Virus record (IMG/VR): IMGVR_UViG_3300044613_002608
Location: 1 to 26,858 of that record
Strand: one strand, 5' to 3'
Source: a virus
DNA: 26,858 bases
The position numbers and the translations under genes are program-made. Numbering within the stretch: the first letter of the stretch is position 1; every line of letters starts with the position of its first letter. This document shows positions 15,072-26,610 of this stretch, piece by piece. A model generated the notes under the pieces. It saw nothing but the letters and a program-made list of their open reading frames with translations. It was not told the origin of the DNA and ran no database searches.

Positions 15072-15806
15072 TTAGCAGTTGCCGTCCTCTCCATCGGCAC
15101 CATTCGGCCCCGGCAGCGATGCTGGGGCCATTTTTTCAAACTGCTCAACCCGTCTCCACCACTTGTCCTTGTAGCCGTCAAACTCCCGGCCACAGGTCAC
15201 AAACTCCTGCACCTCACCACTTTGGGCAACCATCATGATCACCCCATGGTCGATGGCCGTGCCGTGGACCTCGTTGTGCGCACAGGCATATGCCGCCAGT
15301 TGGATAAAGTAATCTTCAATCCACTTGCGCTGCTTCATCTTGTTGGTTTGTTTAAAGTCAACAATTGAGGGTTCTCCCCTATAGACTCCAATGCAGTCAG
15401 ACGTGCCAGCGTACCGCGCTGGGTGATACAGCGGCACTTCCGCACCCCAAACCTCGTTGACGTGGGGAAAGAAATGCTCGATCAACTGGTAGCCCATGCG
15501 GTAGCCCTTGACTTGCAGCCATGTCCGTGGTGCGGGTAAATCCCTATTCAACAGCAGTCGCTCAACCACGTTGTGCATGTGCGTGCCAACCGTTGCCGCA
15601 TCATTTTTGATCCGATCCGCTTCTGCCTCACCAACCCTCGCGGCCCACGAATCAAGGTGGGTTTTGTCCTTTGTATCCGACAGGATGCGGGTGACGCTGG
15701 GCATGTCGTATTCCTGCCCATCGATGCGGTAAACACGGCCCGTGGGTGCGTCGATTCTTTCCAATCTCTCGTACACAAACTTGCGCCGGATAGGGATGAG
15801 CTGCAT
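15072..15806 (-). CDS. PD-(D/E)XK superfamily nuclease (RecB/Cas4-like)
   Basis: Encodes 244 residues with the full motif order of RecB/Cas4/MGME1-like exonucleases: GTHMHNVVERLL (residues 74-85), GAEVPLY (Glu123), GTSDCIG with Asp137, IVDFKQ with Asp150 and Lys152, and QLAAYA with Gln169 and Tyr173. These residues bind the metal ions and cut DNA, likely from ends. No Cys cluster for an iron-sulfur centre is seen, unlike true Cas4. The ATG at 15806 overlaps the helicase stop as TAATG; a TTG at 15818 is a weaker alternative. Coupling to the helicase suggests a joint role in DNA recombination, end processing or host DNA breakdown. The last 12 codons double as a terminator hairpin for the opposite strand. 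Confidence 0.88.
   Translation of the reverse strand: MQLIPIRRKFVYERLERIDAPTGRVYRIDGQEYDMPSVTRILSDTKDKTHLDSWAARVGEAEADRIKNDAATVGTHMHNVVERLLLNRDLPAPRTWLQVKGYRMGYQLIEHFFPHVNEVWGAEVPLYHPARYAGTSDCIGVYRGEPSIVDFKQTNKMKQRKWIEDYFIQLAAYACAHNEVHGTAIDHGVIMMVAQSGEVQEFVTCGREFDGYKDKWWRRVEQFEKMAPASLPGPNGADGEDGNC
15106..15136 (+). terminator. Intrinsic terminator of the late operon, inside the opposing nuclease gene
   Basis: On the + strand a 10-bp stem (15106-15115 with 15120-15129, one G-T pair) closes a GCGA tetraloop and is followed by ATTTTTT. This is a textbook rho-independent terminator 35 bases after the last + strand gene. The reverse strand has no T tract at this hairpin, so it acts in one direction only. 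It is embedded in the C-terminal codons of the nuclease gene (MAPASLPGPNG). Confidence 0.8.
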
Positions 15807-17257
15807 TAAATAATCCAATCTTTGAAATCTTCGCCCAGCACCTGCGAGGCGATGTTGATTTTGTTCCGAAGCGCCTTGACGATGTGTTCATCCACGGTGT
15901 CCTTGGCAATCAGATCGACATAGGTCACCTTGTTGGTCTGGCCAATACGGTGAGCCCGGTCCTCGGACTGCAAACGTACCTCCAAATCAAAGCTGTTACT
16001 GTAATAAATTACAGTGTGCGCAGCCGTCAGGGTCAAGCCGTAGCCGCCGGTGCGGGGGTTGCCGACAAAGAAGCGCAACTCGCTGGCCGGGTCTTGGAAC
16101 TGATCGACGATGTTTTGGCGATCCTCCGCTTCGGTGTCGCCGTAGTAGGTGGCCACAGAGGTCATGCCGTACTCCTTTTGCAGCGCCAGCCGAATGTTCT
16201 CGATGTCCCTGCGGTAGTTGGCCCAGATGATGACCTTGCCGCTGGTCTCCTCCAGTACGGACAGGAGTTCTGTGATTCGGTTGTTGGGAATGTCAATCTG
16301 TTGGCCATCGTCAAGCTTCACGTGCCCACAACAGATCTGGTGCAGCCGCATGAGCTGGGTCAGGGCATTGTTGGTGCTCATCAAGTTGCCATCAACGAGC
16401 GCCAAGGCCATGAGCTTCATCTGGTCATAGTATTTCTTCTGCTCCGGGGTCAGCTCGACATCGCGGCGCGTGTAGATCTTGTCGGGCAAGTCCAAGCATT
16501 CATCCTTGGTCACACGGAAGGAGAACCCGTTGAGCTTTTCCTGCAACTCATCCAGCCTGCGGTAGCCGACAATCTGCTTGAAGGTGTGCGTGGGCAGCTT
16601 GCGCTCGACAAGGATCGCGTACCGGGCTTGGAAGGCGTAGAAGCTGGCGCTGTTTAAGCACTCAGGTCCCAAGAATTCGCACTGGCTGTACAGATCCAGC
16701 GGGGACTTGGTGACAGGGGAACCTGTTGCAATCCTCCTGTACCGCGCCTCGCGGGCCACCTTGATGATGCTCTTGGTGCGCTTGGTGTTCGGTGTTTTGA
16801 TGGTGGTCGATTCGTCCACGGCCATGAAGGCAGAGGTGACGCGCAGGAACGTGCGGGCGTAGGCCACACCTTTTTCGGTGCTGAATGCCTCGACGTTCAT
16901 GATCATGATGCGCAGCTTGTCAAGGGAGTTGATCATCTCCTCCATCTCAAGCTTTTCCGCCTTGCGGGGCGTGGGTGACCAGCATGCCATCTTGTAGCTG
17001 ATGTGATCCGGCATGTGCTTTGGCAACTCGGATTTATACCAATTTCGGTATACGCCCTTTGGTGCCACAATGAGCATTGCATTGATCTTGCCCTTGTCGT
17101 AGAGCATGGCCGCGTTGTTGATGAGCATGAAGCTCTTGCCCGTACCCATCTCTGCGAACAATGCCGCCTGCTGGTGCTCCCAAAAGCGTTCCAGATACGC
17201 CGCTTGATGCACAAACGGCTTGTTCTTGAACGGATACCGCTCCAAAAAATAATTCAT
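15806..17257 (-). CDS. SNF2-like superfamily 2 helicase/ATPase
   Basis: Encodes 483 residues. Motifs in order: a Q-motif-like HQ near residue 18; Walker A EMGTGKS with Lys41; motif Ia IVAPKGVYRNW (63-73); motif II VDES at 147-150 in place of DEAH; motif III ATGSP (177-181); motif V GGYGLTL; and motif VI QSEDRAHRIGQ. This is the SNF2/RapA branch, which translocates on double-stranded DNA; no accessory targeting domain is fused. The ATG at 17257 has AAAGG 8-12 bases upstream and a promoter-like region in the divergent gap. It is coupled to the downstream PD-(D/E)XK nuclease. A role in replication or recombination is inferred; replicative helicase activity is not typical of SNF2 proteins. Confidence 0.92.
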   Translation of the reverse strand: MNYFLERYPFKNKPFVHQAAYLERFWEHQQAALFAEMGTGKSFMLINNAAMLYDKGKINAMLIVAPKGVYRNWYKSELPKHMPDHISYKMACWSPTPRKAEKLEMEEMINSLDKLRIMIMNVEAFSTEKGVAYARTFLRVTSAFMAVDESTTIKTPNTKRTKSIIKVAREARYRRIATGSPVTKSPLDLYSQCEFLGPECLNSASFYAFQARYAILVERKLPTHTFKQIVGYRRLDELQEKLNGFSFRVTKDECLDLPDKIYTRRDVELTPEQKKYYDQMKLMALALVDGNLMSTNNALTQLMRLHQICCGHVKLDDGQQIDIPNNRITELLSVLEETSGKVIIWANYRRDIENIRLALQKEYGMTSVATYYGDTEAEDRQNIVDQFQDPASELRFFVGNPRTGGYGLTLTAAHTVIYYSNSFDLEVRLQSEDRAHRIGQTNKVTYVDLIAKDTVDEHIVKALRNKINIASQVLGEDFKDWII

Positions 17258-17286
17258 GACTTTCTACCTTTCTTTGATAAAGGGTA

Positions 17287-17314
17287 TTGACAACCCGAAA
17301 AGATAGTGTACACT
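17287..17314 (+). promoter_or_regulatory. Sigma70-like promoter for the replication operon
   Basis: A perfect -35 hexamer TTGACA (17287-17292) is separated by 16 bp from the -10-like TACACT (17309-17314, 4 of 6 matches). It lies 33 bp before the GTG start at 17347. It is the best sigma70 match noticed in the window and sits in its largest intergenic gap. Confidence 0.7.
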
Positions 17315-17329
17315 AAAAGCACGTTTCAA
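17300..17329 (-). promoter_or_regulatory. Candidate divergent promoter for helicase-nuclease operon
   Basis: Read on the - strand, TTGAAA (17329-17324, 5 of 6 matches to -35) is followed after 18 bp by TATCTT (17305-17300, 4 of 6 matches to -10). Transcription would start about 35 bases before the helicase ATG at 17257. It overlaps the + strand promoter, so the two polymerase sites should compete. Confidence 0.45.
17304..17315. promoter_or_regulatory. Perfect 12-bp palindrome over the -10 region, candidate operator
   Basis: TAGTGTACACTA is a perfect inverted repeat. It covers the + strand -10 element and touches the - strand -10 element. A dimeric repressor bound here would block both divergent promoters. 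No regulator gene is obvious in the window except the HTH-type proteins at 24211-24543 and 25068-25535. Confidence 0.5.
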
Positions 17330-17346
17330 GAAAGGAGAGCGTAAAC

Positions 17347-17676
17347 GTGGCAAAAGTTTTTATCGTACAAGAGATGCCCAATCATGATATTGCGCCTGCA
17401 ATGAAGTATGGGGACATGGTGGTTTTATTGGACCCCAATACCCAGATTGCATTCAGCACAATACCTACGGTTCGCACACTGCGGCGCAAGCTGCGGGAAT
17501 ACAAGGATGGGGACTTCCTGTTGTTGACGGGTGACCCTGTAGCTATCGGCTTGGCCTGCTCGATAGCTGCTTTCTATAACTCTGGCCGTTTCACAGCACT
17601 GAAGTGGGATCGACGTGAAAGAATGTATATCCCTGTTAAAATTGACATCACTGAGAATGGAGAAAGAGATGAATAA
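17347..17676 (+). CDS. Hypothetical early protein
   Basis: Encodes 109 residues with a GTG start; GAAAGGAGAG lies 7-16 bases upstream, an excellent ribosome site. The protein looks like a compact alpha/beta domain (KVFIVQEMPNHDIAPAMKYG, then GDFLLLTGDPVAIGLACSIA, then FTALKWDRRERMYIPVKIDI). The stretch LLLTGDPVAIGLACSIAA is hydrophobic but short and probably buried rather than membrane-spanning. It is the first gene after the divergent promoter and overlaps the next gene by 8 bases, so it should be expressed early, before the replication proteins. I recall similar proteins in other phages but no known function. Confidence 0.8.
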   Translation: MAKVFIVQEMPNHDIAPAMKYGDMVVLLDPNTQIAFSTIPTVRTLRRKLREYKDGDFLLLTGDPVAIGLACSIAAFYNSGRFTALKWDRRERMYIPVKIDITENGERDE

Positions 17677-19007: not shown

Positions 19008-19034
19008 GAGGGGGCGCGATGCCCCCTCTTTCTT
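19008..19034 (+). terminator. Intrinsic terminator/attenuator inside the replication operon
   Basis: GAGGGGGC (19008-19015) and GCCCCCTC (19021-19028) form an 8-bp perfect stem with loop GCGAT, followed by TTTCTT. It begins 3 bases after the stop of the putative ssDNA-binding protein. No clear new promoter is seen downstream, so it probably lowers rather than ends expression of the primase-helicase-polymerase genes. Confidence 0.75.
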
Positions 19035-22327: not shown

Positions 22328-24189
22328 AAACGATGCCCCTATTTCCCACCATCACCGAGTGGGTGCCCCCTGATACATTCCCAAATCTATCTGCTGCAAA
22401 GGAGATTGCAATTGACCTCGAAACCTGTGACCCCCACATGGAATCTTTTGGCCCCGGATGGCCTCGCAACGATGGTTTCATTGCTGGGTACGCTGTTGCT
22501 GTGGAGGGCTGGAGTGGATACTACCCTGTTGCTCATGCTGGTGGCGGCAATCTTGATAAGCGCCTTGTTGAGCGTTGGGTCCGTGATGTTCTCGCAACCC
22601 CTGCCGACAAGGTTATGCACAACGCCGCTTATGACTGGGGATGGCTTAGAGCCAGCGGATTCACTGTCAATGGCCGAATTGTCGATACCATGCTCGCCGC
22701 CCCTCTCATTGATGAGAATCGATTCAACTATTCACTCAATTCCCTCGGCTTCGACTACCTCAAAGAAGTCAAGTCGGAAGCAGCGCTCAAACAAGCCGCC
22801 GCTGACTTTGGTGTCCACCCCAAAAAGGAACTTTGGAAGCTCCCTGCTATGTACGTTGGTGAGTACGCGGAGCAAGACGCGGCGCTGACCCTGAAACTCT
22901 GGCAGGACTTCAAGATCAAGATGCGCCAAGATGAAGTGGAATCAATCTTCAATCTGGAAACCGAGGTCTTCCCTGTTCTCATGAACATGACGTACCAAGG
23001 CATCCGCTTTGACCGCAGCAAGGCAGAGCAGTTGATCGACCAGCTTCAAAAGCGTGAGAAAGAGATCCACAAAGAGCTGCGCACAATCTGTGGAGCAGGT
23101 GTGGATATCTGGGCCGCACAGTCCATCGCCGTGGCCTTTGACAAGCTCGGCGTGGCCTATGGCAAAACAGGTCGTGGCGTTCCAACCTTTACAAAAGGCT
23201 TTCTCGATGCCTGTGAACATCCTGTGGCTAAGTTGATCGTCGAAGCCCGCGAGACCAACAAGACGCACAGCACATTCCTCCAGCCATATCTGGACTTCAG
23301 CGCCAAGACCGGGCGCATCCACCCGCACGTCAATCAGATGCGCAATGAGGACGGCGGCACGGTGACAGGACGGTTGTCCATGAACAGCCCTAACCTGCAA
23401 CAGGTGCCTGCCCGCCACGAAATCATCGGCCCGCTGGTGCGCTCGCTCTTTCTGCCCGAAGAGGGCGAATTATGGGCATCAAACGATTTCAGTTCTCAAG
23501 AACCGCGACTTTTGGTGCATTACGCCCACCTCTTGAACCTGCCCGGGGCAGAACGGATGGTGGATGCCTACAACAACGATCCCAACACCGACTTTCACCA
23601 AATGGTGGCGGACATGGCTGGGATCAAACGCAAGGCTGCCAAGACCATTGGCCTTGGCTTGATGTATGGCATGGGCAAAGGAAAGCTTGGCGGCGAGTTG
23701 GACTTGTCCGCTGACGAGGCTTCAGAGCTGATCAACACGTTCCACACCAAGGTGCCGTTCCTCAAGGGCACGGTGAACGCGGTCATGCGCCGGATTGAGC
23801 ATCCAGCATCCGGCGGAGCTATCCGCACGCTGCTTGGCCGCAAATGCCGCTTCCCTCTGTGGGAACCGGTGGAATGGGGCGTGAACAAGGCGCTTCCGCA
23901 TGAACAAGCAGTCATTGAATACGGCTCGCGGATCAAGCGTGCGGGGACCTACAAGGGCCTGAACAGGCTCATTCAAGGGTCGGCCGCAGACCAGACCAAA
24001 GCGGCCATGGTGGCGCTCGCCAAGGCCGGGTTCAACCCCATCCTGCAAGTGCATGATGAGCTGGCGCTGTCGGTTAAGAATCGGGAGGAGGCACTGGCTG
24101 CTGCCGAGATCATGGCCAATGCTGTGCGCTTAGAAGTTCCCAGCCGCTGTGACGTAGAGGTTGGCCCGAGCTGGGGTGAGGCAAAATAA
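22324..24189 (+). CDS. polA: DNA polymerase family A with 3'-5' exonuclease
   Basis: Encodes 621 residues. The proofreading domain is intact: Exo I DLE (Asp31, Glu33), Exo II HNAAYD (Asp104), Exo III YAEQD (Tyr181, Asp185). The polymerase domain has motif A NDFSSQEPR (Asp388), motif B RKAAKTIGLGLMYG (Arg436, Lys440, Tyr448) and motif C QVHDEL (His577, Asp578). No 5'-3' exonuclease domain is present, as in other phage replicases. The residue equivalent to E. coli Phe762 is Leu444. The GTG at 22324 overlaps the helicase stop as GTGA and has AAGG upstream; an ATG at 22333 is possible. It is the likely replicative polymerase and the last gene before a strong terminator. Confidence 0.95.
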   Translation: MKTMPLFPTITEWVPPDTFPNLSAAKEIAIDLETCDPHMESFGPGWPRNDGFIAGYAVAVEGWSGYYPVAHAGGGNLDKRLVERWVRDVLATPADKVMHNAAYDWGWLRASGFTVNGRIVDTMLAAPLIDENRFNYSLNSLGFDYLKEVKSEAALKQAAADFGVHPKKELWKLPAMYVGEYAEQDAALTLKLWQDFKIKMRQDEVESIFNLETEVFPVLMNMTYQGIRFDRSKAEQLIDQLQKREKEIHKELRTICGAGVDIWAAQSIAVAFDKLGVAYGKTGRGVPTFTKGFLDACEHPVAKLIVEARETNKTHSTFLQPYLDFSAKTGRIHPHVNQMRNEDGGTVTGRLSMNSPNLQQVPARHEIIGPLVRSLFLPEEGELWASNDFSSQEPRLLVHYAHLLNLPGAERMVDAYNNDPNTDFHQMVADMAGIKRKAAKTIGLGLMYGMGKGKLGGELDLSADEASELINTFHTKVPFLKGTVNAVMRRIEHPASGGAIRTLLGRKCRFPLWEPVEWGVNKALPHEQAVIEYGSRIKRAGTYKGLNRLIQGSAADQTKAAMVALAKAGFNPILQVHDELALSVKNREEALAAAEIMANAVRLEVPSRCDVEVGPSWGEAK

Positions 24190-24211
24190 AAGGGCCCCGT
24201 AGGGCCCTTTT
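24188..24211. terminator. Bidirectional intrinsic terminator between convergent operons
   Basis: A 10-bp perfect stem AAAAGGGCCC/GGGCCCTTTT with loop CGTA. It has a T tract on the + strand for the polymerase gene and, read in reverse, a T tract for the - strand operon. It overlaps the stop codons of both flanking genes. Confidence 0.85.
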
Positions 24212-24543
24212 TACTTGAACAAGTTTTTGATCTTCTCCCAGATCTGTTTCTTCGGAGACCTTACGATCTCCATCCACGAACCGGGCTTGGGTTTGTTGTC
24301 TTCAAACAAATCCAGCTGCGTGATCGTGAACCTGTACTCACCCTTGCCCCTTCCGGGGACAAGGGCCGCTTCAATCTTGTTCTCGTTGGCCAAACCCAAC
24401 CCACAACGGCGGACCATGGAAATGGGCAGCGTTGTAAAGGCTGCAATCTCCGAGGTCTTCATCGAGTAATTGTTCGTGCGTAACGCGCCGAGGAACAGGG
24501 CCCGAACCTCAGCAGGCGTTCTGGATATCGTTGATTTAATCAT
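24211..24543 (-). CDS. Winged-helix-like small DNA-binding protein (putative)
   Basis: Encodes 110 residues. Residues 8-62 look like a helix-turn-helix of the winged type (TPAEVRALFLGALRT, then MKTSEIAAFTTLPISMVRRC, then LANENKIEAALV), followed by a basic beta wing (RGKGEYRFTITQLDLFE). The tail is Lys-rich and helical. The ATG at 24543 has GAGGAAAG upstream and overlaps the HNH gene stop by 8 bases; an upstream in-frame ATG at 24645 would overlap that gene by about 110 bases and is rejected. It is the last gene of the accessory operon. A role as transcriptional regulator, perhaps of the divergent promoter near 17.3 kb, is only a hypothesis. Confidence 0.7.
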   Translation of the reverse strand: MIKSTISRTPAEVRALFLGALRTNNYSMKTSEIAAFTTLPISMVRRCGLGLANENKIEAALVPGRGKGEYRFTITQLDLFEDNKPKPGSWMEIVRSPKKQIWEKIKNLFK

Positions 24544-25078
24544 TTTCTTTCCTCTCTTTTCTTTTCTTTCTGTGTCTTGCATTATTTGATCCTCGGCAAA
24601 GGTCACACCTGCATTTATGCCCTTCATATCCCGCACGCGTACCATGTTTCCATTCCTTCAAACGACCGGAAGACAGTGCTTTTTCTGGGCCCATCCGCTT
24701 AAGTCGTTTTGCCAACGTATTCGGCTTGATTTTTAGGTGTTTTGCCCATTGCGATTGCGTCATCCTCAGCCCGCAATACTCAATAACCACATTTCTACGC
24801 TGATTGTTCAATTGCTGACTAATGGTGGACCATTTGCAGTTTTCAGGAGAATACCCTTGATTGTTGTCAATCCGATCAAGCGACAACCCCGGTGCGGGGT
24901 TGCCCATGTCTTCATAAAAATTATCAAAGCTATTCCGCCATCGATCACATACTGTGATGCCCCGCATACCATAGTTGGGGTATGCGGAATCGTTGACGTT
25001 GTAGCACCTGCGCCTCATGCTTCTCCACGAGTTGTACGCCCGGGTGGTTGTGGGATATTTCCATTTTTTAAAGCTCAT
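24536..25078 (-). CDS. HNH endonuclease-like protein with C-terminal zinc motif
   Basis: Encodes 180 residues in three parts. Residues 14-85 match the common phage HNH/AP2-type block: YNSWRSMRRRCYN, YGMRGITVCDRW, then LDRIDNNQGYSPENCKW with the His replaced by Asp at the first HNH position, as often seen. Residues 105-130 resemble a DNA-binding HTH (MTQSQWAKHLKIKPNTLAKR). Residues 145-161 (HGTRAGYEGHKCRCDLC) form a candidate zinc site, and the end is very basic. It may be a homing-type nicking enzyme or a DNA-binding protein. It overlaps its upstream neighbour by 11 bases, so if mobile it is well integrated in the operon. Confidence 0.8.
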   Translation of the reverse strand: MSFKKWKYPTTTRAYNSWRSMRRRCYNVNDSAYPNYGMRGITVCDRWRNSFDNFYEDMGNPAPGLSLDRIDNNQGYSPENCKWSTISQQLNNQRRNVVIEYCGLRMTQSQWAKHLKIKPNTLAKRLKRMGPEKALSSGRLKEWKHGTRAGYEGHKCRCDLCRGSNNARHRKKRKERKEND

Positions 25079-25535
25079 GCTCCTTGCCTCTCATGTGCCG
25101 TAACATGAGTTCAGTATATCCCATAATGTCAACAACATTATCATCATATGTTGGATCCCCATTGAGCATCCGGGCTATCTTGTGCATGACCATTTCAAGG
25201 GCTTCTTTTTGAACTTCGGATAGCTTGTAAAAGCCCTTTTCTGCACGTAATGCATTTTTAAGACTTTGTGCAATTCGCGCTTGCTCACTAAACAGGCCAT
25301 ATCGTTGCCCTCTTTGTTTCAATACGGCTGTCGTTTCACTATCTGGCACTTCGGGCATAGGAACCATCTCCGGGGGTGCCCAAATCCCGATCTGATTGTC
25401 CAGCGCCTTCTTGCGCAACTGGTATCCAAGGGACGGGGTGATGCCAAACTTCTTGGCCACTGCCCCCACCTTGGCATTGGGATGATTCATGATGTACTCC
25501 ATGAACTTGACTGACTTGCTGCTTTGCTTTCTCAT
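25068..25535 (-). CDS. DUF6378-like protein with N-terminal HTH
   Basis: Encodes 155 residues. The N-terminal part looks like a helix-turn-helix (KVGAVAKKFGITPSLGYQLR, residues 22-41). The C-terminal part (LSEVQKEALEMVMHKIARML, then NGDPTYDDNVVDIMGYTELM) fits the small helical domain I know as DUF6378 in phages. Its conserved acidic pattern (KIARxLNGD...DDxxxDIxGY) recalls all-alpha MazG-like nucleotide pyrophosphohydrolases, but that is inference. The ATG overlaps the stop of the preceding gene as ATGA. The fusion of an HTH with this domain may mean a regulatory role or host-targeting specificity. Confidence 0.72.
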   Translation of the reverse strand: MRKQSSKSVKFMEYIMNHPNAKVGAVAKKFGITPSLGYQLRKKALDNQIGIWAPPEMVPMPEVPDSETTAVLKQRGQRYGLFSEQARIAQSLKNALRAEKGFYKLSEVQKEALEMVMHKIARMLNGDPTYDDNVVDIMGYTELMLRHMRGKEHEL

Positions 25536-25862: not shown

Positions 25863-26026
25863 TTGATTGGAGCCTCCATGCATTTATGCTTCTCTGCTTC
25901 TTTCTTGTTCAAGAAAATCAATTTGCAGTCGGTGCAATGCCAAAGCTCGTTTTGAACTACCACGGTCTGCTTCTCTGCGTGTTGCCCACGCACCCTGCCA
26001 AAGAATGTTTTGATCTTTTCAAGCAT
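25859..26026 (-). CDS. Short zinc-finger-like protein (55 aa)
   Basis: Encodes 55 residues, starting with a basic helix (MLEKIKTFFGRVRG). The second half is a compact Cys2-His-Cys-like finger: WHCTDCKLIFLNKKEAEKHKC, with spacing C-x2-C-x12-H-x-C. The start has a GGAG run upstream and overlaps the preceding gene by 8 bases; the stop overlaps the zinc-ribbon ATG as ATGA. Both junctions match the coupling pattern of the operon, which supports it as a real gene despite its size. It probably binds nucleic acid or a protein partner; the function is unknown. Confidence 0.72.
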   Translation of the reverse strand: MLEKIKTFFGRVRGQHAEKQTVVVQNELWHCTDCKLIFLNKKEAEKHKCMEAPIK

Positions 26027-26443: not shown

Positions 26444-26610
26444 GGGTTTTTATCCTTGAGTTTGGCTTGCTCAATCTTGGACTCAATCTGATTGTCTTGT
26501 CCTTCAAAATGCTCAACCTTTAAACCGCAAGCCATACAAACATAGCGTTTGCCGTCTCGCATATAAAGTTCAAGTTCATATCGCCAATCATGTGTGCAAA
26601 AATCAGTCAT
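26440..26610 (-). CDS. Short zinc-ribbon-like protein (56 aa)
   Basis: Encodes 56 residues. The pattern Cys5-x-His7, then RYVCMACGLKVEH with Cys25 and Cys28, suggests one zinc ribbon at the N-terminus, followed by an acidic helical tail (GQDNQIESKIEQAK). The ATG at 26610 overlaps the stop of the gene to its right as ATGA, and its stop overlaps the next ATG as ATGA. AAGGAGAA just upstream provides a strong ribosome site. It is probably a nucleic-acid- or protein-binding adaptor; the family is not identified. Confidence 0.72.
   Translation of the reverse strand: MTDFCTHDWRYELELYMRDGKRYVCMACGLKVEHFEGQDNQIESKIEQAKLKDKNP

Follow-up and report, generated by a model that had tools for sequence, protein, structure and literature searches.

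The window, that is, the whole stretch of DNA that we analyzed, is the complete virus record IMGVR_UViG_3300044613_002608 of IMG/VR, with a length of 26,858 bases. Since relatives with the same plan are near 61 kb, the record is probably a fragment of a larger genome. Within it, a SNF2-type helicase gene and an exonuclease gene are encoded on the minus strand, facing away from a plus-strand replication operon in which genes resembling those for gp32, gp33, and gp34 of Pam3 are followed by genes for an AEP-type primase, a DNA helicase, and PolA. This is in agreement with the first-pass annotation of the sequence, which had placed a divergent promoter between helicase-nuclease and replication operons. 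The same annotation regarded the region between them as the only sizeable gap in the window, which holds roughly: when open frames of at least 60 aa are taken as likely genes, 25884-26018 and 26444-26606 are also intergenic, and by eye both contain shorter open frames. The features of the locus are as follows.

15072-15818, minus strand: exonuclease gene (phrog_298 exonuclease; PD-(D/E)XK type according to the annotation of its DSL-LC04 counterpart).
15806-17257, minus strand: SNF2-type helicase gene (PF00176/PF00271, phrog_62).
17258-17346: divergent intergenic region of 89 bp, between the helicase gene (minus) and the gp32-like gene (plus).
17267-17273, minus strand: ribosome-binding-like motif AGAAAGG of the helicase gene.
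17282-17296, minus strand: inverted repeat GGGT..ACCC (4 bp) around the forward -35, predicted to form a stem-loop at the 5' end of the helicase mRNA.
17287-17292, plus strand: forward -35 TTGACA (among 105 relatives, TTGACA in 80, TTGACG in 7, and other hexamers, mostly TTGCNN, in 18).
17304-17315, no strand: 12-bp palindrome, with strong constraint on the inner 10 bp (17305-17314) only.
17305-17310, minus strand: reverse -10 TACACT, sharing its TA step with the forward -10; predicted start near 17298.
17309-17314, plus strand: forward -10 TACACT (T1 in 103, A2 in 105, and T6 in 105 of 105 relatives, the counts for A2 and T6 being favored by the search that placed the hexamer); predicted start near 17321.
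17329-17337, plus strand: ribosome-binding-like motif AGAAAGGAG of the plus-strand operon (AGAA[AT]GGA upstream of the gp32-like gene in 105 of 110 regions).
17347-17676, plus strand: Pam3 gp32-like gene, the first of the replication operon (PF23992, phrog_5888).

The nearest named genome that we found was that of phage DSL-LC04 (OR003939), whose PolA and helicase are 74% and 68% identical to those of the window and which was assigned to the proposed family 'Dishuiviridae' in a 2023 paper (PMC10611076). The same divergent pair is present in DSL-LC04, where genes of the opposite strand flank the helicase-nuclease pair on both sides. Pseudomonas phage Yua has both matches, helicase and gp32-like, on a single strand, separated by about 10 bases. 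Together, these two arrangements suggest that the pair was inverted in one lineage. The divergent order was also found in the pelagiphage relatives 023Pt_psg01 and HTVC027P, where it spans the ends of their records. In HTVC023P, the helicase gene is reversed at the end of the record, and no gp32-like match to this phage was seen among the best 40 of 107 rows for the gp32-like protein. Visual inspection showed no palindrome in the printed stretches of these three pelagiphages.

Relatives of the region were collected in five scans of viral contigs, each contributing at most its best 80 loci, which together with DSL-LC04 and 023Pt_psg01 gave 331 loci, including many contigs fetched in more than one scan. 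We left out nine loci with no helicase match, four with no gp32 match, and one (L068) that is not divergent, and 110 distinct divergent regions were obtained after this removal. The five regions without the AGAA[AT]GGA motif have gaps of 211 to 267 nt, in which the palindrome was not seen by eye. The other 105 were reduced to 101 rows by removing L191-L193 and L273, which have another -10. A tree of 100 rows, from which L004 is missing, was built from the two flanking proteins. As the removed rows lack the palindrome, the percentages are valid for the palindrome-bearing clade. Smaller sets of 14, 27, and 40 records were picked by hand, mostly for length, and include many fragments.

The plus-strand promoter of the first-pass annotation is exact, with TTGACA at 17287-17292 separated by a 16-nt spacer from TACACT at 17309-17314, and the perfect palindrome TAGTGTACACTA lies across both -10 regions at 17304-17315, just as described. 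On the minus strand, the proposed TTGAAA (17329-17324) and TATCTT (17305-17300), with a spacing of 18 nt, are literally there, but they are not conserved, as TATCTT was found in only 20 and TTGAAA in only 22 of 101 rows. In contrast, the palindrome itself provides a reverse hexamer of the form TAnnnT in 99 of the 101. Matches to the promoter consensus mean little by themselves when read from sequence (four in 1.7 kb, with 1.1 expected), and it is conservation that constitutes the evidence for a promoter. The palindrome region is conserved in relatives, which makes the proposed divergent promoter likely. The plus-strand ribosome motif follows the -10 after 14 nt in 95 of 105 relatives.

About half of the relatives have the intact palindrome, while something inside it is kept nearly everywhere. 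The full TAGTGTACACTA was found in 50 of 105, and the other common forms were TATTGTACACTA/C/G (10, 6, and 4), CAGTGTACACTA (5), and TAGTGTACACTG (4). On the 100-row tree, the fewest changes needed per column from 17305 to 17314 were 1, 7, 2, 1, 1, 0, 2, 1, 3, and 0, compared to 15 and 13 for the outer palindrome columns and 20 to 22 for the two columns beyond on each side. The ten constrained columns correspond to two overlapping hexamers, a forward TACACT (17309-17314) and a reverse TACACT (17310-17305). Among 101 rows, the reverse hexamer is TACACT in 72, TACAAT in 24, TACGAT in 2, TATACT in 1, and TGCACA in 2. In the 100 rows of the tree, its most mobile column is restricted to G or T, leading to TACACT or to TACAAT, the latter being nearer to TATAAT, and it is mainly through this one change that the left half loses its symmetry. 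In most rows where this column changes, the opposite half stays unchanged. Both sides had changed and were still symmetric in 5 of 100 rows for the outer pair, in 2 for one inner pair, and in none for the other four. The A at 17305, the -7T of the reverse strand, is kept in 102 of 105 relatives, and we know of no use for it in a plus-strand promoter. The forward -10 keeps a non-consensus C at positions 3 and 5 (96 and 94 of 100 rows), which ordinary -10 elements do not need. Either of these features, the C residues or the common 14-nt spacing, might reflect a dedicated factor or the demands of the reverse promoter.

It had been suggested that one dimeric regulator, possibly one of two HTH-type proteins encoded at the right end (24211-24543 and 25068-25535), acts on the palindrome to set the balance between the two operons. 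We consider it unlikely that a phage-encoded dimer represses or balances both promoters from a 10- to 12-bp dyad. Such an operator would account for the perfect 12-bp dyad, present here and in about half of the relatives, and for the C residues kept at two -10 positions. However, the constraint covers the overlapping -10 hexamers and not the 12-bp palindrome, the outer dyad bases being weakly constrained, and departures from the dyad are mostly asymmetric. The number of copies does not indicate a regulated set of sites either. The core A[GT]TGTACA[AC]T (AKTGTACAMT) is present exactly once in 26 of 27 records and absent from G025, and since all 26 records carry it in the divergent region, the single copy is the one found there. 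Similarly, six genomes (370,935 bases) contain six copies of the core, all in the divergent region, where a first-order Markov model expects 1.35 copies overall. A palindrome with at most one mismatch is found at this place in 8 of 14 records. Within the window, the search for further copies of the palindrome led back to TAGTGTACACTA as the sole match at up to two mismatches (0.28 expected). One of the 14 records, G005, has an extra copy with one mismatch, TGGTGTACACTA (L165:18299-18310, G005:38299-38310), at a promoter-like site. This site lies within an operon carrying homologues of both candidate regulators, which is a point in favor of an operator.

As for the candidates themselves, neither right-end protein reaches a curated HTH cut-off. 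The second (25068-25535) has an HTH-like start and matches DUF6378 above the cut-off. Homologues of the first and the second were found in 21 and 25 of 40 records, respectively, absences being uncertain because some of these records are fragments. The second is encoded in 25 of 32 records with a symmetric core and in 0 of 8 without it, which speaks for an operator, but this association may follow clades, as it comprises three independent pairs, too few for a test on the tree, and is inseparable from shared ancestry. Moreover, the complete genome of DSL-LC04 keeps the 10-bp core and has no match to either candidate. An HTH_3 regulator was also considered as a group-wide candidate and rejected as not general, being found in 8 of 27 records and over the cut-off in 6. 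Since the constraint stops at the two hexamers and the changes are mostly unmatched, we prefer overlapping -10 elements over an operator, and as far as sequences can tell, such an overlap accounts for the palindrome better than a dedicated switch protein would. The site cautions against taking every palindrome across a divergent promoter for an operator.

We regard it as rather probable that the region is a bidirectional promoter for a bacterial sigma-70-type RNA polymerase, with the palindrome representing its overlapping -10 elements. Two TACACT hexamers, one per strand, would stand back to back with the TA step in common. The polymerase would bind in either orientation and never in both, so that the replication operon on the plus strand and the helicase-nuclease pair on the minus strand would compete for a single site, the consensus -35 favoring the plus side. 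The helicase transcript would open with a short stem-loop located just after its start and upstream of the ribosome site, and the loop of this stem would be largely the forward -35 read backwards. The use of the host polymerase, the start sites, and the mutual exclusion are what we infer, and protection of the mRNA 5' end would be the most likely role of the stem-loop. The conservation, the overlapping-hexamer pattern, the co-variation of the stem arms, and the single copy per genome were obtained directly.

The -10 elements of the two strands overlap, the forward and the reverse hexamers having TA in common, and the predicted starts, placed 7 nt after each -10, are 23 bp apart. For bidirectional promoters of E. 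coli with a shared -10, 18 bp is reported as the commonest distance between starts, 10 and 23 bp being also common, and the polymerase is described as unable to engage both orientations simultaneously (PMC12825309). Divergent pairs have also been defined by starts 7 to 25 bp apart (PMC10268837). A shared -10 mechanism of this kind would fit without an extra regulator. Several findings count against this reading. The reverse side has no recognizable -35, the minus-strand transcript is predicted to start on a pyrimidine in 86 of 105 relatives, and the two C residues of the forward -10 (positions 3 and 5) are conserved beyond the needs of a generic -10. The extra copy in G005, the lack of the palindrome in the printed stretches of the three pelagiphages, and the raised control ribosome sites described below also belong here.

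The missing reverse -35 and the strong plus side would also be expected if only the plus-strand promoter was real, the left half of the palindrome extending its -10 in the upstream direction and transcription of the helicase genes starting elsewhere. We hold this to be unlikely, given that the A at 17305 is conserved, that the reverse strand keeps TAnnnT almost everywhere, and that a co-varying stem is located where the reverse start would put it. In addition, both neighbors of the helicase pair lie on the other strand, here and in DSL-LC04, and a nearby minus-strand promoter is therefore expected.

This stem corresponds to the inverted repeat around the forward -35 and is predicted to have 4 bp in the window and 4 to 8 bp in relatives. 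A stem with a score of at least 11, allowing for wobble on the reverse strand, was found in 90 of 101 rows. The arm pairs differ between relatives (for instance AGGGTG..CACCCT, AAGCTG..CAGCTT, CAGGC..GCCTG, and CGGGT..ACCCG), with 41 distinct 5' arms among the 90. In a swap test with permutations that ignore relatedness, the rows scored 12.07 with their own arms and 9.33 with swapped arms (101 rows; z 13.4, 0/5000), and the values for 32 representatives were 11.84 and 8.67 (z 8.4, 0/5000). A shifted control, in which the left arm was taken 12 nt further out, gave a z of 2.2 for the 101 rows (65/5000) and of 0.13 for the 32 representatives. Of these 90 relatives, 88 have the first reverse-strand base of the stem 6 to 9 nt beyond the reverse -10, and a purine-rich ribosome-like motif follows the stem within 12 nt in all 90. 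The helicase mRNA would carry the stem 1 to 4 nt from its predicted 5' end in 88 of 90, provided that the reverse promoter is used. For the stem of the window, GGGU/ACCC, 15 of 200 leader shuffles fold at least as well (z -1.47). The direction of wobble pairs leaned to the reverse strand in the 32 representatives and not in all 101 rows, and a second test found one mismatch of each kind among the representatives. In E. coli, a 5' hairpin can stabilize an mRNA and impedes the conversion of its 5' end by RppH (PMC3997798). By analogy, we infer that the stem-loop of the helicase leader may stabilize its mRNA.

Other structures were considered as well. Reading the -35 repeat as a terminator was rejected as not general, a U-rich tail being present in 39 of 90 relatives. 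A hairpin in the forward leader, CACGTTT..AAACGTG, was also rejected: it showed no co-variation (z 0.5 and 1.6), and its fold was equaled or bettered by 171 of 200 shuffles. No Rfam family matched within the window at the gathering thresholds.

The repeat straddles the forward -35, and some other promoters of these genomes have inverted repeats in their spacers, again with different arms. This would be in agreement with a DNA element of the plus-strand promoter, either the site of a regulator with drifting specificity or an extruding hairpin, in place of an RNA stem-loop. The position of the stem relative to the reverse start is inseparable from its position relative to the -35 in most rows, the -35/-10 spacing being near-constant. 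With the -35 placed in the loop, at an almost invariable distance from the -10, a cause at the level of the DNA retains some probability. We nevertheless find it quite unlikely, as the spacing of the arms ranges from 3 to 11 nt among the representatives, which a dimer's site would not readily tolerate, and the repeats of the other promoters stop near the -10, whereas the -35 repeat stops about 12 nt before it.

Combining the RNA stem-loop with the bidirectional promoter leads to a more tentative proposal, which we consider possible but doubtful. The choice of the polymerase at one short site would act as an exclusive switch between recombination and replication genes, with one -10 common to both transcripts, the loop of the helicase-nuclease leader would be the opposing -35, and the same bases would be under selection both as DNA and as RNA. 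The strict TACACT, kept once per genome, may in addition be recognized by a phage-made initiation factor.

Units made of a promoter and a stem-loop seem to occur elsewhere in these phages, without being a general feature. Six relatives have 46 sites in which AGAAAGGA or AGAGGATAG precedes an open frame, and a stem of at least 7 pairs was found in the 50 nt upstream of 13 of them. The mean of 200 mononucleotide shuffles was 0.6 and the largest value 4, and among control sites 1 of 302 had such a stem. With stems of at least 6 pairs, the number rose to 17 of 46 (null 2.3), and control ribosome sites were also raised (36 of 302; null 13.7). A -10-like hexamer was called at 15 of these 17 sites and was followed by the stem after 3 to 7 nt at 11, one of which (G005 38319) has a spurious -10. 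In a second set of seven records, which covered 20,000 of 50,174 bases of G028, 60,000 of 60,977 of G001, and 60,000 of 60,181 of G040, the effect was weaker: 5 of 36 sites had at least 7 pairs (null 0.5, largest 3), some of them away from any -10, and the control sites exceeded their null as well (13 of 247, with a null of 2.9 and a largest value of 8).

At several promoter-like sites of relatives, perfect inverted repeats fill the spacer between -35 and -10, with arms that differ from promoter to promoter. They were found at L177:16233-16295 (G007:36233-36295), L181:19716-19777 (G008), L174 (G003:56979), L165:18280-18319 (G005:38280-38319), and L361:14996 (G010). Arms of 8 to 9 bp were seen, others being judged by eye, and a leader stem-loop often follows. 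For these spacer repeats, a structural role seems more likely than the site of one regulator.

Bacterial bidirectional promoters with a shared -10 element were reportedly described by Warman et al. in 2021. The phage region resembles them in its overlapping -10 elements on opposite strands, in the predicted 23-bp distance between starts, and in the divergent mRNAs of linked function. It differs in its phage setting, in keeping TACACT and not a sequence near TATAAT, and in the stem-loop of the reverse leader, and its starts are predicted. Arbiol et al. are said to have described in 2010 the 'PeSL' promoter-stem-loop cassettes of T4-type phages, which are mobile and present in many copies. Like these, the region has a probable promoter immediately followed by a predicted stem-loop before a phage gene, with arms that vary from copy to copy. 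Unlike them, it belongs to a different phage group and has a different ribosome motif. Stem-loops at the 5' terminus stabilize E. coli mRNAs such as those of ompA and papA (PMC3997798). The predicted stem is similarly located 1 to 4 nt from the 5' end and before the ribosome site, but it has only 4 to 8 bp and a loop dictated by the opposing -35, and stabilization would be an analogy. On plasmid pLS20, overlapping divergent promoters are reported to form a genetic switch with DNA looping (PMC4207663); the promoters of the phage site likewise overlap, but no regulator is supported there.

Promoters of this kind are already known, and what sets the present one apart is its embedded stem-loop and its occurrence in a phage. 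No description of the element was found in the titles and abstract openings of the literature on DSL-LC04, Dishuiviridae, HTVC027P/HTVC023P, and bidirectional or phage early stem-loop promoters. In the main texts of PMC10611076 and PMC9599517, the word promoter is never used, and neither promoter nor helicase occurs in the accessible part of the HTVC027P transcriptome paper (PMC12753301). If the bidirectional reading is true, about a hundred natural variants show a shared -10 that is held two-way across a divergent phage group, so that nature itself has put the idea of bidirectional promoters to the test. The locus would then also illustrate, in a compact form, how the same DNA can act as part of a promoter on one strand and as an RNA structure on the other.

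A replication origin at this site was weakly rejected, the extremes of the cumulative GC skew of five IMG/VR relatives and DSL-LC04 lying elsewhere, the nearest of them at 4.5 kb (G002). Two further structures were noticed in the window. At 24188-24211, between the convergent ends of polA and the 24211 gene, AAAAGGGCCCCGTAGGGCCCTTTT can pair perfectly over 10 bp, carries runs of A and of T, and looks like a two-way intrinsic terminator. At 19008-19028, the hairpin GAGGGGGCGCGATGCCCCCTC lies over the start of the primase gene, where it could damp primase translation or end transcripts.
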